In this document: one piece after another, positions 363 to 27,484 of the stretch | Layout: each line of letters begins with the position of its first letter | Numbering within the stretch: position 1 is the stretch's first letter | Source of the DNA: Pelagibacteraceae bacterium | GTDB taxonomy: Bacteria; Pseudomonadota; Alphaproteobacteria; Pelagibacterales; Pelagibacteraceae | Direction of reading: 5' to 3' | Assembly: GCA_022763425.1 (NCBI GenBank) | Contig: JALEGD010000001.1 | Location: 882,572-946,571 of the forward strand | Length of the DNA: 64,000 bases | Notes under the pieces: model-generated | The model's input: the letters and a program-made list of their open reading frames with translations, nothing else | What the model was told of the DNA's origin: nothing | The model's database searches: none | Position numbers and translations under genes: made by a program

Positions 363-365
363 CTA
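363..365 (-). other. In-frame amber codon splitting the autotransporter
   Basis: The codon order is ATT AAC TAG TCA GGT GGT. TAG is a normal stop here (accC, purN and pilB also end in TAG), so recoding of TAG is not supported. A single CAG to TAG change would explain it. Confidence 0.8.
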
Positions 366-4929: not shown

Positions 4930-4953
4930 TCTTCCTAAACATCAAATATTTTT

Positions 4954-5679: not shown

Positions 5680-5714
5680 TTGTTTTAAATAATATAATTT
5701 TATAAAATTAACAA

Positions 5715-6446
5715 TTAATAATCTGCTTCAGACAAAATAGCATTTGTAACTTTCCAAGCCCCATAAGTAGGATCGGTATTGGCTGAGGTATCAGCCCAAC
5801 CACAGTCGGCTTTTTTCTGTGGCCAATTTGTAGAAAAATTTCCACCTCCTATGTACGCAACTATTTCTTTTGGATTTGGACCAGTTCCCTGTGAACCTCT
5901 GTCTGTAAAATAAGTATGAACTCGAGCAGCTGCAGCTCCTGAACTAATGGCGCAACCTGATCCTGAACCAAAACCACCGTTTGTTAGATAACAATACATC
6001 TGAATATGACCTTTTTTATGATTTGCTCTTCCCTCAGTATCAATGGTTATTGCTTTTTTTCCTTTGACCCATGGATTTTCAAAACCTTTTTCACTCGTCT
6101 CAAAATGTTTTTTTAATGACCAAACAAAATTGTAACAGGTTGTAAATTCTCCAACCTTTGAAGCTGTAGCTTCAGTAACACCAGAAGTCGTTGGTGTACC
6201 ATCGGCATCTCTTTGGATCCAATTACCCATGTTATCTCTCTCTTTCATCGCAGATCCAAGTTGGTTTGATAATATTGTAAATTCAGTTTCAACTGCACGA
6301 ACAATGTTATTATGCATTTGTTCTAAAACTTTTCGTTTGGTGTTTTCTACGTACCTGTCGTATCCAACAACACCAACACCAGCTAATACACCAATGATTG
6401 CAACAACAACTAATAATTCTACTAGTGAAAAACCTTTATTACCCAT
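5715..6446 (-). CDS. Type IV pilin-like protein 3 (group B)
   Basis: A 243-residue prepilin with leader MGNKG before FSLVELL and Glu5. Cysteines are at 104, 152, 165 and 215, which keep the family order but shift because of a 15-17 residue insertion (about residues 76-95) where pilins 1, 2, 4 and 5 have the short GTATGNKI segment. The motifs ADCGW and a terminal EADY relate it to pilin 5 and to the other C-termini. First of the pilin 3-2-1 run. Its start lies 25 nt after the end of the REC-PP2C phosphatase gene, so the phosphatase and these pilins could share a transcript. Confidence 0.87.
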   Translation of the reverse strand: MGNKGFSLVELLVVVAIIGVLAGVGVVGYDRYVENTKRKVLEQMHNNIVRAVETEFTILSNQLGSAMKERDNMGNWIQRDADGTPTTSGVTEATASKVGEFTTCYNFVWSLKKHFETSEKGFENPWVKGKKAITIDTEGRANHKKGHIQMYCYLTNGGFGSGSGCAISSGAAAARVHTYFTDRGSQGTGPNPKEIVAYIGGGNFSTNWPQKKADCGWADTSANTDPTYGAWKVTNAILSEADY

Positions 6447-8828: not shown

Positions 8829-11800
8829 TGCAATTTTTAAATAAAATAAAAATCAACTTATATCAAAAGCTATCCATATTGGTGTTTTTGATATCAATGA
8901 TGGCGATACTTGTTTTTGGAACTTTTACTTTCGTACAATATTCTAATGATGTCAAAAATGAAAAATCTTCTTTACTAAATAACCTAAGAGATAGACAGCT
9001 AGAAACGCTTAATGAATACTATAAAAGTTTAGAAAATTTAATTTTATCAAAAAGCCAATCGCTTGATACAAAAATGGCTTTGAGTGATTTTGAAAAATCT
9101 TACAAAGAAATTAAAATTACAGAATTTCAAAAAGAAGATTTAAAAAAAAATGTAAGAATTTTTTACGAAGATCAGTACAAATTTAGAATCCAAAATGAAT
9201 TTAAAGATGTAGATCAAACCCAGTTAGATCTTTTCTTAAAAGTAGCTTACGCATTTGGAGAACAGCAAGATCAAACACTTTATTTACAAAACGCCTATCT
9301 AAATAACCCTGATCACCCGATGGGTTTTAAAGATAAAATTTATTATTTAAACGATGGTACAAAGTATAACTTGGTAACTCATCCAAAATATCATGATAGA
9401 TTTAAAAAATTTAAAGATTCAAATAATTTTTATGATGTTTTTTTAATCTCTAAAGAAAATTTACAAATTGTGTATTCGGTATTTAAAGAAACTGACTATG
9501 CTACAAGTTTAAAAGACGGCCCTCATAAAGATACAAATTTTGCTAAAATGGCAAAAAAAATTGTAAATGAATACGAAAGCAACGCGTTTAAAGAGCCTGA
9601 AGTTTATTTTACAGATTTTGAAAGATACGGCCCCTCATACTTTGCGCCTGCTGCATTTGTAATGGCGCCCATTTTTACTGCAGATGGTGATTTTAGTGGA
9701 GTATTTGCTGCACAAATTAAAGCTGACAATTTAAATCGAGTGATGGCTAACAATTATCAATGGAAAAAGATTGGCCTAGGTCTTACTGGAAATTCTTATC
9801 TTGTTGGTGAAGATTTGTTACTAAGATCAGACCTAAGATTATACATCCAAGATAAAGAAACATTTTTTAAATCTATTACCGATCAAGATAATAAAAAAAA
9901 TATAAATAGAATTAGAAATTTAACCACCTCAAACCTTCTTTTAAAAGTTGAAAACGAGTCTGTTGATATGGCTTTTGATCGTGAAACTGGAATAAGAGTT
10001 TCATCTAACATTCAAAATAAAGAAGTCTTGTCATCTTATACTTTATTTGAATTTAAAAATATTAAGTATGCTCTTGTTACTGAAATGCAGACCAGTGAAC
10101 TATTTGGTCCAATTCGAAGCTTATTCATTAATATGTCATCTGCAGTTTTGGTCGCGCTGTTACTAGCTTTTGCTTTAACAACCTATTTGATTTTAGGCCT
10201 ATTAAAACCATTAAGAAAACTCATTGAAGTCTCAGAGAGAATTAAGCTTGGATATTATAGTGAAAGAGCTCGAGTTCAGACAAGAGATGAAATAGGTGAA
10301 TTATCTAAATCATTTAATGAAATGGTAAACGCCGTTGAGTCAGATGTCATTCGAAGAGAAAAAGATAAACAAATTGTAAGTGGATTAAAAGAAGAGGCTG
10401 AACAAGCAAACAAGGCAAAGAGTGCTTTTTTGGCTAATATGAGTCATGAGCTTAGAACTCCGATGAATGCGATTATTGGTTACAGTGAAATTTTAACTGA
10501 AGATGCAACAGATAATCAACACCAAGAATATATTCCTGATCTTAAAAAAATTAATTCTGCTGGAAAACATTTGCTTCAATTAATTAATGATATTTTAGAT
10601 ATTTCTAAAATTGAAGCTGGAAAAATGGAGCTTGATATTCATGAAATTAATTTTGCTTCATTGGCTCAAGAAGTAGCAGATACAAGTGAAGCACTTGTAA
10701 CTAAAAATGGAAACACTTTAAAAATTATAAAAGATGAAAGCATTCAAGGTATAACGGGTGATAGTGTTAAGATTAAACAAATTCTATTTAACTTAATTTC
10801 TAATGCTGCAAAATTTACAGAAAATGGAACAATTACACTGGGCTACAAAACTCATAAAGACGACAACAATTATTTAAGTATTTATGTTCAAGATACTGGA
10901 ATTGGAATTGAAAAAGATAAAGCTGCAAAAGTATTTGAAGAATTTGGACAAGCGGATAGCTCTACAACAAGAAAATATGGTGGAACGGGATTAGGATTAT
11001 CTCTTGTTAAAAAATTTAGTGAGTTGATGGGTGGATCTATTAAGCTTGAAAGTGAAATTGGAAAAGGATCAACGTTTACTGTCACTATTCCAAAAAATAT
11101 ATCAACATCTGAGAGTGTTGCAGAGGATGTAAAAAATAATGAAGAAATTGAAACTGGAAAAAAAGTAATTCTAGTTGTTGATGATGATAAATCAGCAAGA
11201 GATTTAATTAAAAGAAACTTAGAAAAAGAAGGGTATATTGTCTTAACAGCTTCAAATGGAGATGAAGCAATAGAAATTGCAAATCAAAAAAATCCTCATT
11301 TAATTACTCTTGATATTATGATGCCTAAAAAAAGCGGTTGGGAAACACTTAAATCACTAAGAGAATATATAAAATTTAAAGATACCCCTGTGATTATGAT
11401 CTCTATGTTAGATGATGATAATACTGCAAAAGGATTAGGCGCAGATGATTATTTAAAAAAACCGGTCGACCGAAATAAATTAATTGATGCAATTACAAAG
11501 CAAAAAGAAAAAATGAAAAATAACAACATTATGATTATTGATGATCTAAAAGATAACCGAGATATCGTAAAAAGACATTTAAAAGATTATAACTTTAATT
11601 TTTCAGAAGCAGATAATGGTAAAGATGCGATTGAAAAGCTTCACGCTAAACCGGTTGATGGAATTATCTTAGATCTGATGATGCCAGTAATGGATGGATT
11701 TGAATTTTTAACAAGGATTAAAGAGTATAATCAATTAAAAGATATTCCAATTATTGTGCTTACTGCGAAAGATTTAAATTCTGATGAAGTAATAAATATC

Positions 11801-12885: not shown

Positions 12886-13662
12886 TTAATAATCAGCATC
12901 TGTGGAGATCATATAATTTGTACCTATCTCCCAAGCAATTCCACCATTTGTTGTTCCGCATAGTGTCTGTCCTGCTGCTGGTTGCATGAATGGGCCGTTA
13001 GCAAAACCTGTGGCTCCATTGTTATCCCAAATTTGTGATGAGGTGTAACCTGCTCTAGTCAAATTTGTCAAACCTCTGTTATATGAAATTCCAATAATCG
13101 ATTGGTCCGCATTTGACCTTGCTATAAATTCTGATGCATCCCCACTTTCAGTATATCCTTCTGATGCATAAGTTGTTCCATCTCTATAATGTGCATAAAC
13201 TTGAAAATTAGAACTTTCAACTGGACAGTTCCACCCTTTTCTAAAACCATTTCCACTTGGTGTTGAACGATTACACATAATTTGAACCATACCTTTTTTG
13301 TGCTGGCCACGGTACTCTGAATCGACAGTAATCATTTTTTTATTTGGAAACCATGGATTCACCATATCTTTAAAATGTTCTTTCACTGAAAAAACAAAAT
13401 GTGCACAAGTTGAGTTGGATGAAATTTTATTACCCGTCGCTGTGCCATCAGGTGCAATTTCATTCATAGCAGAGGATAATTCGTTTGAAACAACTGTATA
13501 TTCAAAATCAACTGCTTTTAAAATAGTTTGTATATTCTGCTCAAAAACTTTTAGTTTAGCATTTTCAACGTAACGATCATAACCAACAATTCCAACTCCA
13601 GCTAAGACACCTATAATTGCAACAACAACTAAAAGTTCAACTAAAGAGAAACCTTTTTGCAT
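12886..13662 (-). CDS. Type IV pilin-like protein 4 (group A)
   Basis: A 258-residue prepilin starting MQKGFSLVELL. The open frame runs further upstream (to 13809), but that extension overlaps the end of pilin 5 and would bury the prepilin cleavage site, so the ATG at 13662 is chosen. Cleavage is expected after Gly4; mature Glu5 is present. Cysteines are at 86, 130, 146 and 235, in the four-cysteine family pattern. Blocks VNPWFP, ITVDS, HKKG and the C-terminal DADY are shared. It is the closest relative of pilin 1 across the signalling cassette (same KVF-QN, FEYTVV and NELSSAMNEI segments, and a similar AAGQ-LCG near the end). It follows pilin 5 by 40 nt. Confidence 0.88.
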   Translation of the reverse strand: MQKGFSLVELLVVVAIIGVLAGVGIVGYDRYVENAKLKVFEQNIQTILKAVDFEYTVVSNELSSAMNEIAPDGTATGNKISSNSTCAHFVFSVKEHFKDMVNPWFPNKKMITVDSEYRGQHKKGMVQIMCNRSTPSGNGFRKGWNCPVESSNFQVYAHYRDGTTYASEGYTESGDASEFIARSNADQSIIGISYNRGLTNLTRAGYTSSQIWDNNGATGFANGPFMQPAAGQTLCGTTNGGIAWEIGTNYMISTDADY

Positions 13663-13702
13663 ATCTTGTAAATATAGTATTTTTTTTTTTTGTAAATTTA
13701 TT

Positions 13703-14365
13703 TTAACTTCCTGGAGTATACGCCGCATCAGTATCAATCGCATCAGCTCCAGTGTGCCAATTACCATGATCAGTTTGGTTCCAGCCGCAATCTGCTTGGG
13801 CAGATGCAACGTTATTTATAAACCTGCCAATTGATTTATGTGAATACTTAGGGTTTACATTATCGTTTTTACTTTTTGGGTCGTAATAAACAATCACTCT
13901 AAATCTTGCTTGTATCATTGGACACCCTCCACCAGCACCATATCCTCCACTCGACTTATAACAAAAAAAAGAAATCATTCCTGGTTGATGAGTTGTCCAT
14001 CCACCATTATCAACTGTTATACTTGTTTTATCTGGTCTATATGGATTTTTAAATGCTTCATTATCTTTGTTTAAAAACTTTTTCATCGAAACTAAAAATT
14101 GATGACAAGTTGTATCACCTGTAATTTTATTCCCAGTTGCAGTACCGTCAACATTATATTCATCTACAGCGCTACCTAATTCATTTCTTACAATAGTAGC
14201 TTCCGTTTCCATCATTCTCAAAATCTTTTCATAGTTTTGATCTAAAACTTTGCGTTTTGTACTTTCTACATATCGGTCATAACCCACAGTTCCAACCCCA
14301 GCTAAAACACCGATTATTGCAACAACAACGAGAAGTTCGACAAGTGAAAAACCTTTTTGATTCAT
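13703..14365 (-). CDS. Type IV pilin-like protein 5 (group B)
   Basis: A 220-residue prepilin, the shortest of the five, with leader MNQKG and FSLVELL with Glu5. Cysteines are at 87, 135, 148 and 193. The segments GYGAGGGCPM and ADCGW place it with pilins 2 and 3. The end is DTDAAYTPGS, that is, the family's D-A-Y end with a four-residue tail. It lies 20 nt after the LamG minor pilin, so the minor pilin operon appears to run on into pilins 5 and 4 and the rhodanese gene. Confidence 0.87.
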   Translation of the reverse strand: MNQKGFSLVELLVVVAIIGVLAGVGTVGYDRYVESTKRKVLDQNYEKILRMMETEATIVRNELGSAVDEYNVDGTATGNKITGDTTCHQFLVSMKKFLNKDNEAFKNPYRPDKTSITVDNGGWTTHQPGMISFFCYKSSGGYGAGGGCPMIQARFRVIVYYDPKSKNDNVNPKYSHKSIGRFINNVASAQADCGWNQTDHGNWHTGADAIDTDAAYTPGS

Positions 14366-14385: not shown

Positions 14386-16251
14386 TTATCTAATTCTCCA
14401 AGATACCGGGGTTAAAATTACCTTTTCTCTAGCAGAAAGATTTTTTGTAAATCCGTGAGTTTCATTTAAAGCTGGATTTGTATAATTAAGCTGAACTCTA
14501 ACTCTTCTTACTCCTGGAGTATAAGTTTCTGGATTGTTACTACAGTCATGCTCTTTACCGCAACTGTCATAAAAAACATTAGTCAAACCCTGTTTAAATT
14601 GATCCATAGTAATTCCAGCTTGTGGCGTAATTCGAAGCGGTGTCGCATTACCATCAAAAGCTTGATTTACCGTCCATCCAGTTGGAACATTAGTTATATG
14701 AATACGATCCTCATTATTCATATAAATTGAATTTGAAGAACCATCAGTGAAAAAATTAAATTCTACAGTATTGGGAACTTGAGTTTGTGTAAAACCATAA
14801 TCTGCAAGTGTAGTTCCAACCTCTCCTTCGGTTCCAATATCCCCTTTGACTACAGGGGCTGAAACAATAGATTCTAATGGTATGAGTTGTCCTTCTGGTC
14901 CTCGACCACACGATAATATTCTATAATATGCAACATCCTCACCTGGCGGAACGTTAATGGATGGGGCAACATCATGATCAGTTACCAAAGGGTATTTTGC
15001 AAATGTTGATTGCCATTTAGTTTGATTATCACCTGTTAAACTTAAACCCATGACAGTTAAATGATTTTTATCAGCATCGGCTTTTGTTGCGTTGTCATTC
15101 ACAGTGCTTCCGCTGCCTTCGTTAAATTTATAATAACTCACTAAATTAGGTTCTGATCCTGTTAACCTTGTTCTATAATTATCAGCTATGTTTGATTGTG
15201 TTCTTGAATTGCTCCAAATTCTAACTTCTGTAATATTACCTAGCCAAGGCACACCTTGAAACTCTACACCATTGTTTTTTGCTGTAGTAACCGTATCTCC
15301 TGTCGTCCCTTCATCAAAACCATTAAGCCCATTACCAATAACTAATGGTAAATAATCTACACTCGTATCACCATCATCATTTTGATTTGGCAACAAATTG
15401 GATCCACTTGCGTCTGTTCCATAACTTGTGTCATTATTTGTAAAACTTGCGTTCCAAGTACCAGTTAATGATCCGTTTTGATATATTCTAGTATTACCTG
15501 TTCCAGATCCTCCGTCCCAAACCCAGGCAAGATGTGTCCATTGTTTTCTCACTACATTTAAATTATTTGCTGGATCCGTTGACGATAATTCATATGCTCC
15601 AATTCTTGGAGAATATTTATGATCGTAAGAACTATTATTAATCACTTTTAAAACAACATCCCAGTATCTTCCATACTCCCAAGCATGCATGTTATAATTC
15701 ACATCATCCTTGTCGTTATAAACCCACATTTCAACTGTAAACTGATCATCAGGAAAACCTTTAAACTTTCTTACATAAGCACCTGATCGTGACTCTCCAA
15801 GTCCATTAGTTGCGCCTCCTGGACCAAATCCTCCAAAATACAATGATCTAATGTTATCGGCATACCTTTGAACAAAAACCTCATACTGAATGCCTGCAAA
15901 CTTTGAATCGGTTCCTAAATTTCCTTTTATCCATTTTGTAAAATGAACATCTTTTGTACTATCTGTATAGCCATGTCGGTTTAGGCATTGGTTATTAGAG
16001 TTATCAATGTGTGAAGTATTTTGAATATCAAGTAAAGAAAACTGATCTTTATTCATTTCAGTGAGCAACCAGTTCTTAGCAGCTTGTACTCCTGACTCTG
16101 AGGCTAATTTAATTTGCTGGTAAACACTGTTACGTGTTGTCGATTTTAATGCATTATCATAATAAAAATTCATCGATGCTGTCATTAAAGAAAGTGCAGC
16201 AACGACAGCTATAACAAAAACAAGAACAAATCCTTTTTCATTTTTTTTCAT
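14386..16251 (-). CDS. PilX-like minor pilin carrying a LamG (concanavalin-like) domain
   Basis: A 621-residue protein in the slot where PilX normally lies. The N-terminus KKNEKG^FVLVFVIAVVAAL is a prepilin signal without Glu5, as in GspK/PilX-type subunits, followed by SESGVQAAKNWL, the PilX-like segment. About residues 135-400 form a LamG/concanavalin-A-like domain: FTVEMWVYNDKD, QWTHLAWVWDGG, TRIYQNGSLTG, ITEVRIWSNSRTQSNI and LVSYYKFNEGSG. A further 220 residues follow with a Cys pair (Cys564, Cys570). Typical PilX is 150-200 residues. GspK/PilX subunits cap the pilus tip, so this is a likely tip adhesin for sugars or glycans (inference). It overlaps PilW by one base. Confidence 0.85.
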   Translation of the reverse strand: MKKNEKGFVLVFVIAVVAALSLMTASMNFYYDNALKSTTRNSVYQQIKLASESGVQAAKNWLLTEMNKDQFSLLDIQNTSHIDNSNNQCLNRHGYTDSTKDVHFTKWIKGNLGTDSKFAGIQYEVFVQRYADNIRSLYFGGFGPGGATNGLGESRSGAYVRKFKGFPDDQFTVEMWVYNDKDDVNYNMHAWEYGRYWDVVLKVINNSSYDHKYSPRIGAYELSSTDPANNLNVVRKQWTHLAWVWDGGSGTGNTRIYQNGSLTGTWNASFTNNDTSYGTDASGSNLLPNQNDDGDTSVDYLPLVIGNGLNGFDEGTTGDTVTTAKNNGVEFQGVPWLGNITEVRIWSNSRTQSNIADNYRTRLTGSEPNLVSYYKFNEGSGSTVNDNATKADADKNHLTVMGLSLTGDNQTKWQSTFAKYPLVTDHDVAPSINVPPGEDVAYYRILSCGRGPEGQLIPLESIVSAPVVKGDIGTEGEVGTTLADYGFTQTQVPNTVEFNFFTDGSSNSIYMNNEDRIHITNVPTGWTVNQAFDGNATPLRITPQAGITMDQFKQGLTNVFYDSCGKEHDCSNNPETYTPGVRRVRVQLNYTNPALNETHGFTKNLSAREKVILTPVSWRIR

Positions 16252-16883
16252 TAATAACTCACGTTCCTCATAAATGCAGCAGCACTGTATTTTTCAATAA
16301 TTTTTTCACCTGGATCTTCGAGCTCAATATCAAAATTTAAAATATTATTTTTCTTTTGAATTTTGAATTTCTTGAAATGTTTTGCAACAGGCTCCCAACT
16401 AATTGGCATTGTATCATCATTGTTTAAAGTGCAATTATCTGAGTCATAGATCCTTTTTTTTAGTATTGTTTTGTCCGTATCTCCAGTTTGTTCTATTCCA
16501 ATTTCATATTCAACAATTTTTCTTTGAACCGTCCCATCATTATTTTCATGATCAAAACAAGCTGAAACACGATCTGCATCATTTCCATCTGTAACTGCAT
16601 TGTTTGAGGCATCAAATAAACGAATTGCATTTGCATCTGAGATATTATCACTTGAATCAATATGTTTATAACCTGCCATTCTTAAATCTAATTGCAGTGA
16701 ATGAACCGCAAATCTAACTTCTTGTTTAATAACGCTATGATTGAGTTGTCTGACAAATGTTTGTTGGAAATTATTGTAAATGAAATAAGCGGTTCCCATG
16801 ACGATCGTTGAAATGACCACTGCCATTAATGCTTCAGCTAGTGACATACCACTTTGATTTTTAAAATTTTGATTAAGAACCAT
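16251..16883 (-). CDS. pilW: PilW-like minor pilin
   Basis: A 210-residue prepilin. The signal is KNQSG^MSLAEALMAVVIST with Glu at mature position 5. The segment RFAVHSLQLDLRMAGYKHID is the PilW hallmark (family reads R-A---L-RDLRMAGY). PilW belongs to the minor pilin priming complex with FimT, PilV and PilX at the tip of the pilus. It overlaps PilV by 11 nt and the LamG PilX by 1 nt, so the four are one tightly coupled operon. Length is below that of pseudomonad PilW (about 270), so the globular part is reduced. Confidence 0.8.
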   Translation of the reverse strand: MVLNQNFKNQSGMSLAEALMAVVISTIVMGTAYFIYNNFQQTFVRQLNHSVIKQEVRFAVHSLQLDLRMAGYKHIDSSDNISDANAIRLFDASNNAVTDGNDADRVSACFDHENNDGTVQRKIVEYEIGIEQTGDTDKTILKKRIYDSDNCTLNNDDTMPISWEPVAKHFKKFKIQKKNNILNFDIELEDPGEKIIEKYSAAAFMRNVSY

Positions 16884-17697
16884 TGGTATAATGCCTCCTA
16901 AACACTTCTGTAATATTATCTTGTTTAATAGTTATGGTAACTTGTGTTTTGGTAACTGATGTAAATTGATCTACTCCGCTTACTTGATCAGTTACTCCAT
17001 CGTTATTATCATCAACTGGAACATTGACTGTAACCTCGCCAACCTCAATTAATCTTTTATCATTTGTTAATGCACGGCCTAAATGCGTATTTAACAATGC
17101 GCCCCATTTTTCTAAACTGGTTACTACATTAGAGGATAAAGAAGATTTGTAAGTTCCATCTTGGTATTTTAATAAATCTAAATCATCATATGGATCTAAC
17201 GATCCATTTGCGTTTAAAGTAAAAGTTAATTTTGCATTAGCCACTGCATTTGTAGCTAGACTTAAATTTGGTGATGTATCTGGAATATCTGATCGTTTTA
17301 CAGTTAAAGTTGATCTTGTATTTGTTAAACTTGTAGCAGCTGTAATTTCATAAGTACCAGGTACTCCAGCTATCACAAAACGGTCTCCTATATCTGGAAG
17401 TGATGTTAAAGCACTAATCACAATTGATTGTGTGGCTCCTCCAGAAGGATTGGTATTTTGAAAAACAACCGGATCACCATATTGATTTGGTTTTGGAGCA
17501 TAAACAGCATTTAATTCTTCGAAAACTAAATCAACCGCATAAGCTGCTTTGTCAAATTTTCTGAGAAGAGTAAAACGCTTTTCTTGTTCAGACTGCAATG
17601 TCATGAAAACAACAACCGAAATTGCAAGAATTGTCGAAGCGGTAATGGCTTCAACAATGGATAAACCTTTTTGTTTTTTAAATTTATTTTTAATCAA
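16873..17697 (-). CDS. pilV: PilV-like minor pilin
   Basis: About 274 residues. The prepilin signal is KKQKG^LSIVEAITASTIL with Glu at mature position 5. The best start is TTG at 17697, with GGGAG five bases upstream; an in-frame TTG at 17709 is an alternative, and no ATG is available. The rest is beta-rich with no recognised domain except conserved hydrophobic spacing. Order (FimT, this gene, PilW, PilX) is the reason for calling it PilV. It overlaps FimT and PilW. Larger than usual PilV (about 150-190). Confidence 0.7.
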   Translation of the reverse strand: MIKNKFKKQKGLSIVEAITASTILAISVVVFMTLQSEQEKRFTLLRKFDKAAYAVDLVFEELNAVYAPKPNQYGDPVVFQNTNPSGGATQSIVISALTSLPDIGDRFVIAGVPGTYEITAATSLTNTRSTLTVKRSDIPDTSPNLSLATNAVANAKLTFTLNANGSLDPYDDLDLLKYQDGTYKSSLSSNVVTSLEKWGALLNTHLGRALTNDKRLIEVGEVTVNVPVDDNNDGVTDQVSGVDQFTSVTKTQVTITIKQDNITEVFRRHYTNGS

Positions 17698-18262
17698 TTC
17701 TACTCCCAATATTAAAAAAACCAGATGAATAAACGTTTAAAAAATCTGATTTGCCCCCTGCTCGGTTAGATGCTGTTATTGATCCTCTTGCATTTTCTGG
17801 CATTGTTGCATTAGGCAATATACAAAAATAATTATTTGCATCAGATACAGCGGTACAGTTACCTGTAAGTGAAGTACATTTTTTTATCGTAAAATGTTCG
17901 AGTTCTTTCGTAAGATCATCAACTTTGGCTCCGTTGCTTCCTACACCAGAAAAACTTGAACAAGGTGGAGACGAATCTTTATGAAATTCTGAATTAAAAC
18001 GATTTAAGCTTTCATCTTTATATACTTCTAACTCAGATGTATTGTCTGTATCATTGTTCACAATCTTAATACGGTAAGCATTGCCATCCTCCATTGCCAT
18101 TTGACGAACTAGATTAAATTGTGATCTGACAACCGCAATATCGCCTTGATAGTTTTCACTTACACCAAAATTATTAATTGCTGGAAGACCTATTCCAACC
18201 ACAATGGATGCCACTGCAATAACAACTAAAAGTTCAAGAATACTAAAACCATTGCGATTCAT
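17690..18262 (-). CDS. fimT: FimT/GspH-type minor pilin
   Basis: A 190-residue prepilin with leader MNRNG and cleavage before FSILELLVVIAVASI; Glu5 is present. The segment VVRSQFNLVRQMAMEDGNAYRIKIV is typical of GspH/FimT proteins, as is a globular part with a Cys pair (SPPCSSF, then Cys in KKCTSLTGNC). It is the first gene of the minor pilin operon. The divergent gene starts only 12 to 24 nt away, so promoters of the two overlap. FimT-type minor pilins take part in assembly initiation and in some bacteria bind DNA; DNA binding here cannot be judged. Confidence 0.82.
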   Translation of the reverse strand: MNRNGFSILELLVVIAVASIVVGIGLPAINNFGVSENYQGDIAVVRSQFNLVRQMAMEDGNAYRIKIVNNDTDNTSELEVYKDESLNRFNSEFHKDSSPPCSSFSGVGSNGAKVDDLTKELEHFTIKKCTSLTGNCTAVSDANNYFCILPNATMPENARGSITASNRAGGKSDFLNVYSSGFFNIGSRID

Positions 18263-18274
18263 ATTTAATATAGT

Positions 18275-18658
18275 ATGGTTTTTATAATGAATTGGTCAAT
18301 TTTAAAAACTAAGTTTTTTTTACGTGTTTACCTCATGGTAACTTTTTCTTGTATGGTCAATATGGTTTCAGGCAAAATTTTATTAATCTCAATGAAACAT
18401 TTCATAATCGCTTCAAAGGTAGGTTTAGTTTGCGCAGGAGGCTTTGCATTAGTTACATTACTGACCTCTAAACTTATGCAGAATAAATATTTTTTAGCTG
18501 GCTATGTATTTATTGCTACAGGTATAATTGATTATTTCACTCATCCAACGCACTTTGGAAATCACTATACAGAAGCCGTTACAACTGGACTTGGAGCTGC
18601 TTTAATTTCAATCATTGTATCTTTTATTTTGGATAAAAAAAATCAACCAACTGCTTGA
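18275..18658 (+). CDS. Small multi-pass membrane protein, function unknown
   Basis: Up to 127 residues, with about three membrane segments after residue 40 (about 45-66, 71-88, 98-118) and a hydrophobic, Met-rich start. Candidate starts are ATG 18275, ATG 18287, or a shorter form from Met40 (18392). The last 16 nt overlap the end of pilC. It breaks the pilus gene strand between pilC and fimT. No family was recognised. The hydropathy pattern and codon use look like a real gene, but it might also be an antisense-free spacer reading; moderate confidence only. Confidence 0.5.
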   Translation: MVFIMNWSILKTKFFLRVYLMVTFSCMVNMVSGKILLISMKHFIIASKVGLVCAGGFALVTLLTSKLMQNKYFLAGYVFIATGIIDYFTHPTHFGNHYTEAVTTGLGAALISIIVSFILDKKNQPTA

Positions 18659-19926
18659 CCAACACTGAATATCGGAAGGTATAAAGCGACCATTAACAAA
18701 CCAATAATAGCACCAATCACAACAATCATTAAAGGCTCAATAATTGATGATAAAGCGGCAACAACACCATCAAATTCTTCTTCATAATATACAGCAATAG
18801 ATTTAAACATCTCTTCCATATTTCCTGTTTTTTCACCAACCGCAGTAAGTTGAGACAAAGCTAATGGAAATACATGTGTTTCATTTTTTAAAAGTTCAGA
18901 CAACGTTTGACCAGTAACAATTTTTTTTGAAATTCTCTCAATAGCATAAGCAAAAACTAAATTAGTTGTCACCGTTTGGGCAATTCTTAGAGTTTCAATA
19001 ATACTTACCCCAGCTCGTGTTAGATTTTCCATAATCATACACATTCTGGAAACTGTAGATTTGATAATTAAATCTCCAAATAAAGGAAATTTCAAAAACC
19101 TTTTGTGCATCATGTGCCGAAAGCCTTCAATATTATTGTATAAAAATTTATAAATAAATCTGACAACAAATATTGTAATTGCAATTCTCATAATGTTTCC
19201 ACCATCTGCAATAAATCTGCTGGCATCGACGATAATTAGAGTTGGGCCAGGTAATTTAACACCCATATTCGCATACATTTTTTCAAAGACGGGAACAACT
19301 TTCCATAACATGAATATGGTAATTGTAGTTGCAACGGTAAGAAGCATGATTGGATAAAAAAGTGCACTTTTAATCCCTGCTTTAATTTTCTGGTTCTTCT
19401 CTAAAAGCTCAACTAACTTAATTAAAAACTCATCTAGCTTACCACTGGCTTCACCCGCTGAGATCATATTAATATAAATGTTATCAAATATTTTAGGGTG
19501 TTTCTTAAAAGAGTCGGTCAAATTCATTCCTGAATTTAAATCTTTAACAATATTATGAGCTGTCATTTTCATTTTCATATGAACTGTTTGGTCTCTAATC
19601 ATCATAATTGACTCTAAAATTGGAAGACCTGCTTTAATCATCGTTGATACTTTTTTTGTAAATTGCAAAAGTTCTTTTGGTGGAACGGTTGCCCATGGTC
19701 CAAAATTTAAATAGATCTGACCACCTTTGAAAATAATTGGAGCGTTACTAACTGGAATATCTTGAATTTGATTAACTTCTTTTTTTTGAGCAGAAGCCTT
19801 TTTTATACCTGTAACAATAATTTTTTTTTGTCTAAGCGCTAAAGATGCTGCTTTTGGATCTGAAGCATTAATTTCTCCATTAATTCTTTTACCAGCTTGA
19901 ACACCTGAATATGCAAATGTTGCCAT
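18643..19926 (-). CDS. pilC: Type IV pilus inner-membrane platform protein PilC (GspF family)
   Basis: A 427-residue GspF-family protein. The N-terminal domain starts ATFAYSGVQAGKRINGEI with A-R-KKIIVTGI. Two T2SF repeats follow: LLQFTKKVSTMIKAGLPILES and, in the second half, RMCMIMENLTRAGVSIIETL. Membrane helices lie near residues 190-215, 240-260 and 390-420 (IVVIGAIIGLLMVALYLPIF). PilC is turned by the PilB ATPase to insert or extract pilins. The gene follows pilB by 3 nt and is last in the core operon. Confidence 0.92.
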   Translation of the reverse strand: MATFAYSGVQAGKRINGEINASDPKAASLALRQKKIIVTGIKKASAQKKEVNQIQDIPVSNAPIIFKGGQIYLNFGPWATVPPKELLQFTKKVSTMIKAGLPILESIMMIRDQTVHMKMKMTAHNIVKDLNSGMNLTDSFKKHPKIFDNIYINMISAGEASGKLDEFLIKLVELLEKNQKIKAGIKSALFYPIMLLTVATTITIFMLWKVVPVFEKMYANMGVKLPGPTLIIVDASRFIADGGNIMRIAITIFVVRFIYKFLYNNIEGFRHMMHKRFLKFPLFGDLIIKSTVSRMCMIMENLTRAGVSIIETLRIAQTVTTNLVFAYAIERISKKIVTGQTLSELLKNETHVFPLALSQLTAVGEKTGNMEEMFKSIAVYYEEEFDGVVAALSSIIEPLMIVVIGAIIGLLMVALYLPIFSVGQAVG

Positions 19927-19929
19927 AGA

Positions 19930-21675
19930 CTATGTAACTAATATCCTTGAATATTCATGGATATCAATCACTCCGCTTTTAATAAAGCCACGACCTATAT
20001 CTTGCATAGTTTTAAATCCACCTTTTTTTGCAACCTCTAATAATTCATCTCCTCTTGCGTCTCTTAAAATTGCAGACTCTAATTCAGGTGTTTTTTTCAA
20101 TACTTCGTAAATACCTTGTCTACCTTTGTAACCAGTATTGTTACATTGATCACAACCTTGTCCTTTTTTTGCTTTAAACGTTGAAAGCTCTTCTTGTTTA
20201 AAACCAAGTTTTAATAAACTAGGTTCAGAAGCTTGATCATCTTCCGCTAAACAATTTTGACATGACTTTCTAGCAAGACGTTGTGCTACGATTAATGTAA
20301 GAGCAGAAGCAACCATGAAATTTGGAACGCCCATGTTGGTTAATCTTACAACTGTTGATACTGCATCATTAGTATGAAGTGTACTTAATAATAAGTGACC
20401 AGTAAGCGCAGCTTTAATTGCAATATTAACTGTATTTTTATCTCTGATCTCTCCAACCAGTATCACTTCTGGATCTTGTCTTAAAAAAGATTTTAAAATA
20501 TTTTCAAATGTTAAACCTATCTCTTCATTGGCTTGAACTTGACCTACTCCTTTTAAGTAAAATTCCACTGGATCTTCAGCGGTCATAATATTTTTACCTG
20601 GACTATTTATTTTTTTTATACAGCCATAAAGCGTTGTACTTTTACCGCTTCCTGTTGGCCCAGTCACCAATACCATGCCTTGAGGCGCAGAAATTGCACT
20701 CACTAAATTTTTATAATCTTCAGGATCCAAACCAATTTGCTCTAAACCAAGATCAGGTCCAGCTGCAAGCAAACGCATAACCACTCGTTCACCTTCTTTT
20801 GCTGGAAGACAAGAAAATCTCACATCAATATCTTCATCATCTTGACTTTTTGGTTTGGGGTTTTTGAACTGAAGTTTACCATCTTGCGGTAAACGCCTTT
20901 CAGAAATATCACAGCCAGCCATAATTTTTAAACGCGTAATAATAGCGTTATAGTTAGACATCAAAAAATCTTTGTATTGAACTTGTTCCTGCAAAACACC
21001 ATCTTTTCTAAAACGAATTCTAGCTTCACCTCGACGATATGGTTCAATATGAATATCTGAAGTGCCAGTATTAAAGGAGTCTAACAAAACTGCATCAACA
21101 AACGATACCACATCGCCCTCTGCTGGCTTAGCTCCTCTTGCTCCGGGAATTTTAATTCCTTGAGCCATGGGTTTTGGTTTTGCTGCAGGTTGATCTGTAC
21201 CGCTTGAAGATTTTAAAGCTTCAACAACAACTTTGAATTTTTTTGCATTTTCAATATTAGATGGTTTTGCTACATAGATTTCAATATTACATCCCGTCAT
21301 ACTTTTCATTTTACTAGCAAGCGTTGATTTTGTTGGATCAAAAATTGCAACTTTTAAAATTTTACCAACTAAATCAAATGGAATGATTTCGTTTTGTTGA
21401 ATAAATTCTTTTGGAAGTTTGGCTAACGCTTCTTTTTTTACAGTTTGTTCAGTAAGTTGAATTTTTCTTAATGCGTAGTTTCTTGAAATCGCCGCAATAA
21501 TATCATCTTCGGTAACTTTTTTATCTTCTATTAAATAATGCAGGATACCTAATGGGGCTTTTCCGTTCCCATCATATTTTTTTTTAGCTTCTGCTATCAT
21601 GGGGTCGGACAACTTCCCCATGGTTTTTAACAGGTTGGTTACTTTCAAACTAATTTCTGGTGAAATTGAAGGCAT
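19930..21675 (-). CDS. pilB: Type IV pilus extension ATPase PilB (GspE/MshE family)
   Basis: A 581-residue secretion ATPase. The N-terminal MshEN-like region is about 20-150 and the catalytic core about 185-560. Walker A is GPTGSGKST (339-347). The Asp box reads MTAEDPVEF, Walker B ILVGEIRD, and the His box LSTLHTNDA. Four cysteines, C472-x2-C475 and C508-x2-C511, form the zinc site typical of PilB/GspE. It hydrolyses ATP to drive pilus growth. It lies between the secretin and PilC. A retraction partner, PilT, is present at 26495. Confidence 0.94.
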   Translation of the reverse strand: MPSISPEISLKVTNLLKTMGKLSDPMIAEAKKKYDGNGKAPLGILHYLIEDKKVTEDDIIAAISRNYALRKIQLTEQTVKKEALAKLPKEFIQQNEIIPFDLVGKILKVAIFDPTKSTLASKMKSMTGCNIEIYVAKPSNIENAKKFKVVVEALKSSSGTDQPAAKPKPMAQGIKIPGARGAKPAEGDVVSFVDAVLLDSFNTGTSDIHIEPYRRGEARIRFRKDGVLQEQVQYKDFLMSNYNAIITRLKIMAGCDISERRLPQDGKLQFKNPKPKSQDDEDIDVRFSCLPAKEGERVVMRLLAAGPDLGLEQIGLDPEDYKNLVSAISAPQGMVLVTGPTGSGKSTTLYGCIKKINSPGKNIMTAEDPVEFYLKGVGQVQANEEIGLTFENILKSFLRQDPEVILVGEIRDKNTVNIAIKAALTGHLLLSTLHTNDAVSTVVRLTNMGVPNFMVASALTLIVAQRLARKSCQNCLAEDDQASEPSLLKLGFKQEELSTFKAKKGQGCDQCNNTGYKGRQGIYEVLKKTPELESAILRDARGDELLEVAKKGGFKTMQDIGRGFIKSGVIDIHEYSRILVT

Positions 21676-21701: not shown

Positions 21702-23330
21702 TTATACAATATTAGCGGTCACAAATATTAACAGCTGGGACTTGGTATCATTTTTAGTTTTAGTTTTAAAAAACTCTCCTAAAATTGGTATTCTATGTAA
21801 CAAAGGGACAAAAATAATATCATCTTGTTTGGTATTTTTATAAACACCACCCAATACAGCAACATCTCCGGCATTTAACACTACAGTAGAAGTTACGTTT
21901 TCAGTATTTTTAGGTGTATTAGAATCTGTTCCTCCTGATCCAAGAGAATCGTTTGCTAAAGTGATTTGTAATCTAACTTTGTCACCAATGATAGTTGGGG
22001 TCACTCCAAAGTTTAAAGTAAAATCTAACGTTTCAAAACCACCGGCATCTCCTCCAGATGCAGGAACAGATCTTACTTGCTGAGTTCCTTGACTAATTGT
22101 TGCTCTTTCACCATCAATTGCAAATATTTTAGGATTTGAAATCGTTTCTGAATTTGTGTCTGATACTGATGCAGCAATTGTTGCACCAAGTCTAGCTCTA
22201 CCAAGTCTGGCCAAAATAAAAACTCCACCTTGTAACGTTGGAGCAGTAAGATCAGTGTCTGCAGAAGCGTCCGGAGTACCAACTGCTAACTTATTTCCTT
22301 GAGGATTAGATGCACCAACCATAGTTCCAATACCATCTTGCCCTCCTGCTCTCCAGTTTCCTCCAGCTGCACTTACAGCTTCTAAATTGGCATCAAACTT
22401 TTTTGTAAAACCATCTTCAGCATTTACAATAAATGCTTCAATCATCACTGATTTTCTCTCAATATCAATTTTATCTAATAACATTTCTGTTTGATCTAAC
22501 TGTTGTTTTGTACCAGTGACAATAAGCTGATTGTTAATCGCATCATTTGTCACTGTTAATCCGTTAACTACAGCATTCAAACTTGTTACTAAATCTTGTG
22601 ATGTTTGGTTAAAGACTTTAAATATTTCTGTTCTTGTTTCTTCTTCTGCTTGAGCTTGATCTCCAGTTGCATCTGTTGCTGTATTTGCAGGAGTTGTAGA
22701 GGCACTATCGCTTCCAAGAGAATCTAAGTTTTTATTAATAGTATTTGTATTATCGATTTTCTGTTTTTCTAATTCTATAAATTTCTTTTTTGTATGAACT
22801 CTCAGCATTCCAGAAGACTGGTCATGCAACATAACAAGATTATTCATTTCTAAAATTGCATACACTGCTGATCCCCATTTAATGTCTTGAAAATCAACTG
22901 TAATCGTGCCTGTTACCTCATCACCAATAATTAAATTTCTTTTAACAATGCTAGAAAATAATTTTAATGCGGATCTAATATTAATGGAGTCAAATTTTAA
23001 TGTAACTGGAACTGTCTCTAATGTTTTTACAGGTAAATTTAAATCAATAATATCTTTTGGTCCAAGTGATGCTTCTTGAACTACGGGTTGATCTAGAGGA
23101 ATTCTTCTTTTGGATGTTGGTTTAGATTTTGATCTAAAAGATTTTGCATCTTTAGCAAATTGATCTGAATTTTTTTTTAATTCTGTAATTGATTTTTTAA
23201 CATTAAAATTTTCAATATCTTGTTTGGTAATTTTCTCTTTATCTTTGTAAGCCATGTCTGGTCTTTTCTTTCCACAAGAAGCGGTAAAGACTAAAAGTAG
23301 CGACAAAGTTAATACAAGTATCTTTCTCAT
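21702..23330 (-). CDS. pilQ: Outer-membrane secretin PilQ/MshL
   Basis: A 542-residue secretin. The N-terminus is a lipoprotein-like signal with a possible lipidated Cys19 (TASC; the -3 position is not Leu). An STN/AMIN-like segment, VPVTLKFDSINIRSALKLFSSIVKRNLIIGDEVTG, is followed by an N-domain (IFKVFNQTSQDLVTSL) and the C-terminal secretin domain, with the signature VNAEDGF, LNFGVTPTIIGDKVRLQI and GDVAVLGGVYKNTKQDDIIFVPLLHRIPILGEFFK. It forms the gated pore for the pilus. It is closer in length and layout to MshL/GspD-like secretins than to the long PilQ of pseudomonads. It overlaps the LysM/PilP gene by one base. Confidence 0.92.
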   Translation of the reverse strand: MRKILVLTLSLLLVFTASCGKKRPDMAYKDKEKITKQDIENFNVKKSITELKKNSDQFAKDAKSFRSKSKPTSKRRIPLDQPVVQEASLGPKDIIDLNLPVKTLETVPVTLKFDSINIRSALKLFSSIVKRNLIIGDEVTGTITVDFQDIKWGSAVYAILEMNNLVMLHDQSSGMLRVHTKKKFIELEKQKIDNTNTINKNLDSLGSDSASTTPANTATDATGDQAQAEEETRTEIFKVFNQTSQDLVTSLNAVVNGLTVTNDAINNQLIVTGTKQQLDQTEMLLDKIDIERKSVMIEAFIVNAEDGFTKKFDANLEAVSAAGGNWRAGGQDGIGTMVGASNPQGNKLAVGTPDASADTDLTAPTLQGGVFILARLGRARLGATIAASVSDTNSETISNPKIFAIDGERATISQGTQQVRSVPASGGDAGGFETLDFTLNFGVTPTIIGDKVRLQITLANDSLGSGGTDSNTPKNTENVTSTVVLNAGDVAVLGGVYKNTKQDDIIFVPLLHRIPILGEFFKTKTKNDTKSQLLIFVTANIV

Positions 23331-24598
23331 TATCTAAATAGATCCTCTACATTTGTAATTGAGTTTTCTTCATTCGATGCTTGCTCTTGAGGCGCAGGTG
23401 ACTCTGCAGATGGTGCACCCTCTGCTCCTGCTTGAGCTGGAGTTGCAGCTCCTGGTCCAGGTGTTGCTCCAGGTGTTGCTCCAGTTGGTGACGGTGCCAT
23501 TGGAGCTTGTGGAATTGATGCGACTTGTCTGACAATAGGAGCGTTGATTTGGAATGAAAACTCCTCATAGTTTTCTAAAACTTTCATTTCATGATTTGTA
23601 ATTTTAACAATTTTACCACCCTGCTTTCCAAGCTTGTCACCTTCTCTAACCATAAATTGCTTTCCACGAATTTCTATAATCGCTAAATTTTTTGGATTGA
23701 TTGTGTAGTTTAACAAACCTCTTTTTGTTTTCATCACTTCAACATTTAAAACTGGATTTACAAAAATAGGTATTTTAACGTATTGATCTTTGTTTAACTT
23801 ATCATTCCTTGATAAGTTATTAATTTTTAAAACTTCATCTTTAGTTCTTCTGAACTTTTGTGCAATTTGCTCAATTGTTTCTTCAGTGCTAGTTCTGTAA
23901 ACATAAAAAGGTAACAGCAATCTCTCACCAAGTTTAAGCTCATCTCCTGGCATTAAGTTATTAAAACCAATCAAATCTTTTAAATCTAAATTATAAATTT
24001 CAGCAATCATTTCTAGTGATTGACCTTTTTGAACTTTGTGGATTCTTGCAGGTAGAGTAATTCTTGTTCCCATGATTAATTTTGATCCTGGAACAATCGA
24101 GTTTGCAATTTTTAACTCTTCAGGCGCATAACCGTACTGTCTAGCGATGCTATCTATAGTATCATTCTGATTAACAATATGGGTGGTTTTAATATTACCA
24201 TAATCGATTTTTTGCGCTGAACCTTCACGGTTAAAAGCAACCATATCTAAGTTATCTGTCGTGTTAAGCGCGGTACCTTTGAGTGTATATTCAACAAGAT
24301 CATAAGCAATTAAAGGATCGGGTGCTAAAATATTTCCAATTGGATCAATTTTATCTGAAGTAGATTGCACTACAGGCTGTTGCATTTGTGGTTGTGGAGC
24401 TTGAGCTTGAGACATGGTGTCTTGTGGTTCAGGATTTCCGTTGTTTTCTACAGTTTGCTCGGATGAGGTTGCGCTTTCGTCTTTAGCAACTTCGGTACCA
24501 TCCCCTAAGCTTCTAGTAAAAGGGTCTTCAGTATTTGCATACAAAGATTTACCTGTAATAAAAAAAGATAAAATAAATATGATTATAAACTTGCTCAT
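23330..24598 (-). CDS. LysM protein with PilP-like segments, pilus alignment complex
   Basis: A 422-residue exported protein. A signal peptide ends near residue 21. Residues 85-125 (DPIGNILAPDPLIAYDLVEYTLKGTA) and 305-345 (AIIEIRGKQFMVREGDKLGKQGGKIVKI) look like the two halves of the PilP fold. Between them are three LysM-like repeats (about 138-183, 186-230, 235-278) that should bind peptidoglycan. The tail after 360 is Pro/Ala/Gln-rich, with 15-bp tandem repeats in the DNA near 23455-23490. PilP joins PilN/PilO to the secretin. The LysM part would fix this link to the wall, a task done by separate proteins (FimV, TsaP) elsewhere. It lies between PilMN and PilQ, the usual PilP place. Confidence 0.72.
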   Translation of the reverse strand: MSKFIIIFILSFFITGKSLYANTEDPFTRSLGDGTEVAKDESATSSEQTVENNGNPEPQDTMSQAQAPQPQMQQPVVQSTSDKIDPIGNILAPDPLIAYDLVEYTLKGTALNTTDNLDMVAFNREGSAQKIDYGNIKTTHIVNQNDTIDSIARQYGYAPEELKIANSIVPGSKLIMGTRITLPARIHKVQKGQSLEMIAEIYNLDLKDLIGFNNLMPGDELKLGERLLLPFYVYRTSTEETIEQIAQKFRRTKDEVLKINNLSRNDKLNKDQYVKIPIFVNPVLNVEVMKTKRGLLNYTINPKNLAIIEIRGKQFMVREGDKLGKQGGKIVKITNHEMKVLENYEEFSFQINAPIVRQVASIPQAPMAPSPTGATPGATPGPGAATPAQAGAEGAPSAESPAPQEQASNEENSITNVEDLFR

Positions 24599-24600
24599 TT

Positions 24601-26358
24601 CTACCGTTTCTTTTTAATAATTTTGTCTAAAACTTTAAAGTTATCAAACGTTTCACCTTCAATCGGCGCCATTGCTATTGTTGCTGAAAATTTTTTCGTA
24701 ATATCTTCATTTGGAAAAGTCTTTGGTGCAGGTTTTCCTCTCTCACTATAAAGCTGTTTCCTGTCCTCTTCAGTAAAATTAACAACGTTATTTAGTTTAG
24801 CTTCTTTAACAATCTCTGCTTCAGAAAATTTGTCTATCATTTGAATGATAGATTGATCATCTTTTGCTATTCCATCAATTTCAACTTGTCTTTTATCGCT
24901 AATCTCAAACTTGGTCAGTCTAACATTTTTAGGAACATTAGATGATAGAGATGCAATTAGTTCGGCTGTTGTTTTTTTATTTTCTCCAAAGTATTTTGAA
25001 GTTGTAACTTGACCAGTAATTTTTCCAACTTTACCTTGGTATGCCTGAATTAATTGCTCCTTTGACTGAACATCTTTTGTAATACCAGCAAGCTTAGCTA
25101 TTTCAGAAGAGTTATCTAAAATTTTAAAAAGGCTACCTGCTACTAAGTGGACCCCACCAAAAAAGAATATTAAAAAGCTCATGATAAAACAATATTTTGA
25201 AAATGAATTTGCTTTTCTATTCACTTTTAATTGTTCAGCGCGTGGTAACAAATTAAAATCATACATCTGACTTTCGTTTGCTACATTGTACGCATTTAAT
25301 TTTCTTAAACCTGCTCCAATGCAATTAATTGTTTTTGATTTATTTGGAAGTGCATCAAGATATTTTTTTTCATCATCTCCAAATGTAATACTTTCTTCAG
25401 GATCATAAGTTTTGATCACAACTTCACCAAGTTGTTTCTCTAGTCCTGTAAATAAATTTTTTGTTTTAGATTTATCGGTTACAACATTGATTAAAGATAT
25501 CGGCTCACACTCATGCTGAGTTTCAAACTCAACTAAACCTTGTTTGATTTGTGATGCGAGACGATCAAAAATCTCATCCCAAAATTCAGTGGTAACATCA
25601 TCAACTTCTTCAATTGTATCTAAAAGAACCTGATCTGCTTCAACGATATTAATATCTGAAATATTTAAACCTTTATTTGATGCAACCGTTAAATAACTAT
25701 TGTCTTTACTGTAATTAAAAATTGCAACCGGGCTATCAAACCCTTCTTTTCCAAGTGAAGCATATAAAGCATTTATTTGTGAAGCTGGATTAATATCAAT
25801 TATAATTGGATTTAATCCTGCTAATCTAAAAATATTGACATAAGCTTCAACTAATTTTTTTTCAATTGTAACTAAAGTGACATTCATCACACCTAACTCT
25901 TCATTAGATGAAATGATTTGATAACTAGTTTCAAATTCTTCTAAACTTTCAGGTGTTTCATCAAACTGTTCCCAAAATCCACCAAGACTAACAGTTTCTG
26001 CTAAATCTTTTGGATCCATAAGTGGAATTTGAAGATTATAAATTGTTGAACTTAACCTGCCTAAAGTAATTGCAACATCTTTTGTCTTTGTATCAATAGA
26101 ATCTAAACAGTTTTTTATTTGATCACTTAAATAAGTTGATGCTGAATAAATATCTTGGTCTTTTCCAATTCCTGCAATTTGTTGATAGGTATAGTCTTTA
26201 ACCTGCCAAATCTTTTTCTTGTAAATGAGTTCGATTAATTGAATCTCGTTATCTTTAAACGCAACACCTAAAATTTTTTCTCCATTTAATGAGATTTTTC
26301 CTAATTTTTGAAAAATAGGTTCTAAATTTTTATTTAATAGTTCAGTTATGTTAGCCAT
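24601..26358 (-). CDS. PilM-PilN fusion protein
   Basis: A 585-residue protein. Residues about 25-360 are PilM-like (actin-fold ATP-binding): ILGVAFKDNEIQLIEL at the start, LETVSL-type and GLNPIIIDINPASQINALYA motifs, then IGAGLRKLN. At about 369 the PilN hallmark FNLLPRAEQLK appears, followed by one membrane helix (389-410) and a periplasmic coiled coil plus ferredoxin-like domain (VPKNVRLTKFEISDKRQVEIDG). In most T4P systems PilM and PilN are separate, and PilM binds the NLLP tail of PilN. Here they are fused, as in GspL. No pilO gene follows; the next gene is the LysM/PilP protein. First gene of the core operon. Confidence 0.85.
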   Translation of the reverse strand: MANITELLNKNLEPIFQKLGKISLNGEKILGVAFKDNEIQLIELIYKKKIWQVKDYTYQQIAGIGKDQDIYSASTYLSDQIKNCLDSIDTKTKDVAITLGRLSSTIYNLQIPLMDPKDLAETVSLGGFWEQFDETPESLEEFETSYQIISSNEELGVMNVTLVTIEKKLVEAYVNIFRLAGLNPIIIDINPASQINALYASLGKEGFDSPVAIFNYSKDNSYLTVASNKGLNISDINIVEADQVLLDTIEEVDDVTTEFWDEIFDRLASQIKQGLVEFETQHECEPISLINVVTDKSKTKNLFTGLEKQLGEVVIKTYDPEESITFGDDEKKYLDALPNKSKTINCIGAGLRKLNAYNVANESQMYDFNLLPRAEQLKVNRKANSFSKYCFIMSFLIFFFGGVHLVAGSLFKILDNSSEIAKLAGITKDVQSKEQLIQAYQGKVGKITGQVTTSKYFGENKKTTAELIASLSSNVPKNVRLTKFEISDKRQVEIDGIAKDDQSIIQMIDKFSEAEIVKEAKLNNVVNFTEEDRKQLYSERGKPAPKTFPNEDITKKFSATIAMAPIEGETFDNFKVLDKIIKKKR

Positions 26359-26494: not shown

Positions 26495-27484
26495 ATGTTA
26501 GAAGACTTACTTCGGGACTTACCTAAGCAATACGACTTATCCGATATTCATATCAGATCGAATCAACCTATTGCCATAAGAGAAAACGGTGAAATAAAAG
26601 TTTTTAATGAAAACGTTATTAGAAGAGAAGATTTAGAAAGTTATTGGAAAAAAGCATTAGATAAATCTCAATTTGATTACTTAATCAATAATGGAGATTT
26701 AGATTTTGCAATTGTTGTTGATGGACAGAGGTTTCGTGCCAACGGCTATTATTGTTCTTATGGACCAAGTATGGTGCTTAGAAAAATTGTAACTGAAATT
26801 CCTGATATTAATAAACTTGGATTACCTGAAGCAGCACATGTTGCCATCACTCATAAAACAGGTTTGGTTTTGGTTACAGGTCAAACTGGATCTGGTAAAT
26901 CGACATCGCTTGCTGCAATGATTGATCAAATCAATTCAAACCGAGCAGAAAATATTATTACCATTGAAGATCCGATAGAATTTGTTCACCCTGCAAAGAA
27001 AAGTATTATTTCGCAAAGGGAAGTTGGAAAAGACACAGGTAGCTTTGCACGAGCACTAAAGTCTGCACTAAGACAGGATCCTGATGTTATTCTTGTAGGT
27101 GAGATGAGAGATTTAGAAACTATTTCCTTAGCCTTAACTGCTGCTGAAACAGGCCACTTAGTTTTTGGAACGCTTCACGCGAGTAATGCAGCTTCAACTA
27201 TTACAAGGATATTAGATGTGTTTCCTGCCGCACAAAAAACACAAGCTCAAACAATGCTTGCAGGATCAATTAGACTAGTCATGTCTCAACAATTATTAAA
27301 AAGAAAAGGCGGTGGAAGGATAGGTTGTCATGAAATTATGACTGGAACTGCTGCAATAAGAAATTTAATTCGAGAAGGAAAAGTTGAACAAATTCCATCA
27401 ACACTTCAAACATCTGCTAAAGATGGAATGTTTACGATGGAAAAATGTTTAGAAGGCCTTAAACAAAAAGGCTTAGTTGAATAA
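26495..27484 (+). CDS. pilT: Type IV pilus retraction ATPase PilT
   Basis: A 329-residue ATPase. Walker A is GQTGSGKST (129-137), the Asp box IEDPIEFVH, Walker B VILVGEMRD, and the His box FGTLHASNA. The C-terminal AIRNLIRE (287-294), needed for retraction in PilT, is present. There are no zinc cysteines, as expected for PilT. The N-terminus DLSDIHIRSNQPIAIRENGEI is standard. It is divergent from the core operon across 136 nt. It implies that these pili can be retracted, so twitching or pulling on bound surfaces or DNA is possible. Confidence 0.93.
   Translation: MLEDLLRDLPKQYDLSDIHIRSNQPIAIRENGEIKVFNENVIRREDLESYWKKALDKSQFDYLINNGDLDFAIVVDGQRFRANGYYCSYGPSMVLRKIVTEIPDINKLGLPEAAHVAITHKTGLVLVTGQTGSGKSTSLAAMIDQINSNRAENIITIEDPIEFVHPAKKSIISQREVGKDTGSFARALKSALRQDPDVILVGEMRDLETISLALTAAETGHLVFGTLHASNAASTITRILDVFPAAQKTQAQTMLAGSIRLVMSQQLLKRKGGGRIGCHEIMTGTAAIRNLIREGKVEQIPSTLQTSAKDGMFTMEKCLEGLKQKGLVE

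Follow-up and report, generated by a model that had tools for sequence, protein, structure and literature searches.

The analysed stretch of 64,000 nucleotides from a Pelagibacteraceae (SAR11) bacterium, here called the window, contains a type IV pilus gene cluster in which the PilM-like and PilN-like parts are encoded by one open reading frame at 24601–26358. This frame is open on the minus strand only, the plus strand at the same position being riddled with stops. The features on which the description rests are the following.

24601–26358, minus strand: pilMN, fused PilM-PilN, single ORF of 585 aa with Pfam PilM_2 and PilN
25672–26268, minus strand: PilM_2, cytoplasmic actin-like domain, residues 31–229, Pfam E 6.3e-8
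25243–25257, minus strand: FNLLP motif, the cytoplasmic tail motif of PilN, here internal, residues 368–372
25135–25191, minus strand: single predicted transmembrane helix, residues ~390–408, hydropathy 2.11
24772–24960, minus strand: PilN ferredoxin-like periplasmic domain, PF05137, residues 467–529, E 6.2e-8
23330–24598, minus strand: pilP with three inserted LysM modules, 422 aa; LysM E 1.1e-19, PilP 0.0055, the latter under cut-off
21702–23330, minus strand: pilQ secretin, best NCBIfam match TIGR02515, 1.3e-59, under cut-off
19930–21675, minus strand: pilB extension ATPase, best NCBIfam match TIGR02538, 1.5e-164, under cut-off
18643–19926, minus strand: pilC platform protein, T2SSF 5.1e-54
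16251–16883, 16873–17709 and 17690–18262, minus strand: three prepilin-like minor pilin genes
26495–27484, plus strand, divergent from pilMN: pilT retraction ATPase, TIGR01420 at 406.4 bits, exceeding its cut-off of 319.1

Both Pfam domains of PilMN score above their curated cut-offs (PilM_2 32.4 bits versus 27, PilN 33 bits versus 22.8), and PF05137 matches nowhere else in the genome at E ≤ 1; the NCBIfam model TIGR01175 gives 46.9 bits, below its cut-off of 133. The helix is the only 19-residue hydropathy peak above 1.6 in the protein. PilMN accordingly has the domain, the single helix and the NLLP-type motif of a type IVa PilN, and departs from the type IVa definition in that PilM and PilN are one ORF and not two separate proteins. 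A profile built from 13 relatives and run against all solved structures found Myxococcus xanthus PilM (3jc8_Ma, 1.4e-27) in first place, followed by 5eou (2.2e-15, profile positions 37–394) and other PilM chains, and it also matched M. xanthus PilN (3jc8_Na, 4.6e-5). PilMN could be modelled only at low confidence (mean pLDDT 42.5), and the Foldseek search with this model, which placed PilM chains on top at low TM-scores, was counted as weak support. Pfam, motif and hydropathy thus agree with the original prediction of a PilM actin-like fold running directly into an FNLLP motif, a transmembrane helix and a PilN domain, and the next gene, which begins 2 nt downstream, is the LysM/PilP protein as had been proposed. 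In four related loci (L025, L026, L027 and L029) the PilM part is preceded by a further conserved domain of some 60 aa; in the two that were scanned, L025 and L026, it had no Pfam match.

PilQ, PilB, PilC, PilD and PilT, the set by which a type IVa system is recognised, are all encoded in this genome, only the PilT and PilD domains being over cut-off. The platform protein is ambiguous between GspF (295.3 bits) and PilC (280.7 bits), both below cut-off in NCBIfam. The minor pilin at 17690–18262 has a Pfam N_methyl domain, and relatives of each of the three minor pilins were found by phmmer in other pilMN clusters. Several further genes lie around the cluster. Five paralogous prepilins flank it on the minus strand (window 4210–6446 and 12886–14365) with nearly identical N-termini (FSLVELLVVVAIIGVLAGVG), and two more of the kind lie beyond the window (L017:9982–10632 and 11106–11648). 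An autotransporter-like protein with five PATR stretches is encoded nearby at 363–3587, minus strand; a SAR11 adhesin gene adjoining type IV pilus genes is mentioned in PMC12636525. Adjoining the minor pilin genes, the minus strand at 14386–16251 encodes a 621-aa protein with a Laminin_G_3 lectin-like domain and, in our reading, a hydrophobic pilin-like start, and the product is a possible tip adhesin.

The LysM modules of PilP split its beta domain, lying between the first strand (YTLKG in the window) and the remainder. In the clade of the window PilP has 402–422 aa, with three LysM stretches in the window and two in genome G023, while the nine SAR11 PilPs from loci where pilO is adjacent are shorter, at 136–168 aa (207 aa in G011), and are gapped at the LysM site. 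LysM was also found in PilP of two alphaproteobacteria outside SAR11, G241 and G478 (L077:8045–9508 and L079:3582–5033). The model of the LysM-PilP protein is poor (mean pLDDT 40.1), and its predicted secondary structure is compatible with an insertion. In PMC5285504, LysM belongs to FimV.

Spread of the fusion

Pfam PF11104 alone matched in 92 of 100 relatives, presumably through other actin-fold proteins such as FtsA, and since it was too unselective, the survey was run with a profile covering the entire fusion. A pilMN match was present in 13 of the 100 relatives (own genome counted), and in the 12 where the gene could be read it was one frame each time; in the remaining genome, G057, the contig ends inside the gene. 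In the order Pelagibacterales, 122 of 397 genomes matched the profile, and 115 of these had one match across both domains by our count of the listing, spanning being defined as a match from position 31 or earlier to position 547 or later of the 574 profile positions. The seven others are G1006, G057, G925, G1042, G1023, G098 and G858, and in the first three the match starts within six bases of the contig start. Many entries of this survey list an internal stop; in both comparable cases (G046 and G053) this is simply the stop codon that closes the gene, where the match ends. Genome G996 apparently has two pilMN copies, one with five stops and one without.

Among 386 genomes of the class Alphaproteobacteria six matched, three from SAR11 and three others (G241, G298 and G478), and all six matches span both domains. 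The phylum served as a control. There, 122 of 299 genomes matched, own genome included, and no stop-free match across both domains was seen among the matches listed in the 121 others: the listed matches cover the PilM part only (frames mostly of 340–430 aa) or the PilN part (mostly 190–340 aa), and the sole one that crosses the junction, in G522, has three stops. Seven listed matches lay in frames longer than 500 aa, of which five were fetched and two, G632 and G522, were left out; in G632 the PilM and PilN matches are separate. Four of the five fetched have PilM and PilN in separate ORFs. The fifth, in G488, is one ORF that has a PilN domain, matches T2SSL weakly (0.12) and adjoins genes that we read as gspJ-like and gspK-like, and for these reasons it is probably a GspL. 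Spanning matches in the order and the class and none listed in the phylum control make the fusion look characteristic of type IVa pili in Alphaproteobacteria, the class sample consisting of six matching genomes.

The pilO gene outside the operon

The absence of PilO that the original prediction proposed holds for the usual place in the window, where no pilO stands between pilMN and pilP, and fails for the genome, a single contig of 1,211,322 bases. The full-genome search located a pilO ORF at 875377–876069 (230 aa, one N-terminal helix), which lies outside the window, 6.5 kb before its start and some 31 kb away from pilMN. PF04350 (PilO) matches at this one place in the genome up to E 10 (875524–875940), over cut-off, and a profile of eight PilOs from loci adjacent to pilMN, with the window clade excluded, likewise has this locus as its sole match up to E 10. 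In a comparison of profile with profile the displaced PilO scores a probability of 97.1 (E 6e-11). The protein is divergent, with 16–25% identity to the pilMN-adjacent PilOs, and an 11-sequence PilO profile has M. xanthus PilO as its best, weak, match in the PDB (E 0.013). Pfam gives no match for the PilO of G023 or for the pilMN-adjacent candidate of G011. Around the displaced gene lie, among others, two pilin genes and the genes of a zinc-finger protein, of a STAS protein and of PilD, the prepilin peptidase. The PilO-like proteins of the three non-SAR11 alphaproteobacterial loci (L077, L078 and L079) are longer, at 395–407 aa, with about 220 residues ahead of the membrane helix.

Nine relatives (L024–L032) have the order pilMN-pilO-pilP-pilQ, with pilO directly after pilMN, and pilB and pilC follow pilQ in all of them except L028, where the contig ends after pilQ. 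Six of the nine adjacent PilOs were identified with the PilO of the window genome as query and that of G011 by a PilO profile excluding G011 (4e-12), while those of L027 and L028 were named from position, alignment and weak PF04350 matches. By contrast, pilO stands apart from pilMN in all five genomes of the window clade that were tested (G000, the genome of the window, with G006, G023, G742 and G745), G742 and G745 being placed in the clade because their PilO is 75–76% identical to that of G023. Of the 13 genomes with pilMN in the relatives search, pilO is present in 12 of 12 testable ones, a count that leaves aside G057 and L016, where the contig stops within the cluster or shortly past it. 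The simplest history suggested by these gene orders is that pilO moved out of the operon in the window clade and was not lost. The trees conflict on the history of the cluster: the PilB tree groups the window clade with G011, G298 and G478 (100/99), away from the seven other SAR11 entries, whereas the PilMN tree splits the three non-SAR11 alphaproteobacteria from all 13 SAR11 entries (100/99), though with long branches meeting.

Competing readings and the proposed machine

We consider it probable, at roughly 0.86, that PilMN serves as both PilM and PilN in a complete type IVa pilus machine of this SAR11 bacterium and pairs with the displaced PilO. The divergence of that PilO and the scores of several neighbouring genes below their NCBIfam cut-offs count against this reading. 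One competing explanation, that a frameshift or an assembly error has merged separate pilM and pilN genes, has nothing in its favour and practically no probability. In the independent SAR11 genome HIMB114, pilMN is likewise one frame (584 aa, 91% identity), many other genomes have the fusion in common, and the nucleotide differences between the two genes, counted at codon positions 1/2/3, are 18/5/79 for residues 1–350, 4/2/12 for the linker, 3/3/14 for the helix and 15/11/79 for the periplasmic part. The excess at third positions in every part, across the junction too, fits purifying selection acting on a single protein along its whole length, and together with the shared single frame it argues that pilMN is no sequencing artefact. 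Of the two outcomes that the original prediction named as its possible undoing, a pilO gene elsewhere in the genome has turned up; the frameshift was looked for in close relatives, and HIMB114 and the others have the single frame. That the gene is the GspL of a type II secretion system, where such a fusion is normal, is very unlikely, although PulL/GspL is the counterpart of PilM and PilN fused (PMC10191384), GspH matches a minor pilin and GspF is the best fit for the platform protein (both under cut-off in NCBIfam), and periplasmic domains from the PulL system and EpsL appear at Foldseek ranks 30–31. Against it stand PilM_2 and PilN over cut-off with no match of T2SSL (PF05134) to PilMN at E ≤ 0.1 in Pfam, and the NCBIfam evidence, in which the secretin and the ATPase fit the PilQ and PilB models best and PilT is over cut-off; on this evidence membership of the GspL family was rejected. 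Type II secretion systems are not known to have a retraction ATPase PilT, and GspC takes the place of PilP in them; here PilT is present, and a profile of 12 PilPs has PilP first in the PDB, with GspC only at E 0.24. The analogy with GspL drawn by the original prediction stands as regards the covalent PilM-PilN architecture.

A machine that does without PilO, its PilN acting as a homodimer, was suggested earlier from the gap in the operon, and PilN and GspL-type periplasmic domains can homodimerise in other species (PMC5805733, PMC3815138). The suggestion rested on the absence of pilO, and it has lost its premise with the finding of a PilO gene in the genome by PF04350 and PilO profiles and of pilO in every testable pilMN genome of the relatives search, nine times directly after pilMN; we give it hardly any probability, and nothing in this analysis points to a PilO-free machine. 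In Pseudomonas aeruginosa, PilN homodimers are reported beside PilN-PilO heterodimers (PMC5805733), and by analogy homodimers may form beside heterodimers here too.

With PilO present, the most parsimonious reading of PilMN is the usual complex plus a single covalent bond, between two proteins that elsewhere associate non-covalently by way of the NLLP tail of PilN. The PilM part would serve PilB and PilT as a stator socket on the cytoplasmic side, in keeping with the description of PilM as a stator socket contested by the extension and retraction ATPases (PMC11656802). The PilN tail is clamped by PilM in the system of PMC5285504, and in PilMN the NLLP segment would dock onto the PilM part of its own chain. 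The motif after the PilM part reads NLLP, NLIP or NVLP in a pattern search, with NLLS in G023 and NLHH in G011, and the pattern is unmatched in the three non-SAR11 alphaproteobacteria, where NFLP and SMLP were seen by eye; that it is still recognisable suggests that docking persists within one chain. The helix would cross the inner membrane, and the ferredoxin-like domain would pair in the periplasm with PilO, the gene of which is proposed to have left the operon in the window clade and now lies beside pilD. In P. aeruginosa, PilP binds only PilN-PilO heterodimers according to PMC5805733. The whole would then make an active pilus.

The first phosphate-loop segment is altered: it reads LGVAFKDNEIQ in the window and LGLDIGSTSIK in PilM of M. 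xanthus. PilMN may therefore no longer bind nucleotide. GspL, likewise, is not known to bind it.

PilMN has the same domains, NLLP-type motif and single helix as PilM and PilN of the type IVa pili of P. aeruginosa, M. xanthus and Thermus thermophilus, has like neighbours (pilP-pilQ-pilB-pilC-pilT) and matches their solved structures with its profile; those systems differ in having two proteins where here there is one chain, with pilO outside the operon. A PilM-PilN fusion in a pilus system has already been published for Clostridioides difficile (PMC6916266, with reference to Melville and Craig 2013), and in type II secretion the equivalent is GspL. The C. difficile likeness is one of description, in a monoderm, and a different PilN motif is proposed for monoderms in the same paper. 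GspL/PulL shares the covalent architecture and a GspM/PilO partner (PMC10191384, PMC4471445), but PilMN is encoded among pilus genes, together with pilT, a PilQ-type secretin and PilP. The P. aeruginosa structure 5eou (PilM-PilN1-12) also has PilM joined to a PilN tail, but it is engineered, comprises only a 12-residue tail and is termed a chimera in PMC5805733. Among the papers listed by full-text searches of the open-licence literature, none has a title or abstract that shows an alphaproteobacterial PilM-PilN fusion.

A more far-reaching interpretation is tentative, and we regard it as possible but doubtful: that a single ancestral fusion marks alphaproteobacterial type IVa pili, that it forms a GspL-like, nucleotide-independent stator, and that the window clade has rewired the complex, with LysM-PilP fixing it to peptidoglycan and PilO moved to pilD. 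As a caution, a pilO missing from one operon does not mean that PilO is missing. In the P. aeruginosa model, PilM-PilN interactions modulate the associations of PilB and PilT (PMC5424180). That a natural, permanently tethered PilMN occurs alongside pilT suggests that extension and retraction can cycle without PilN coming away from PilM, and with a fusion in a laboratory strain that question becomes testable.
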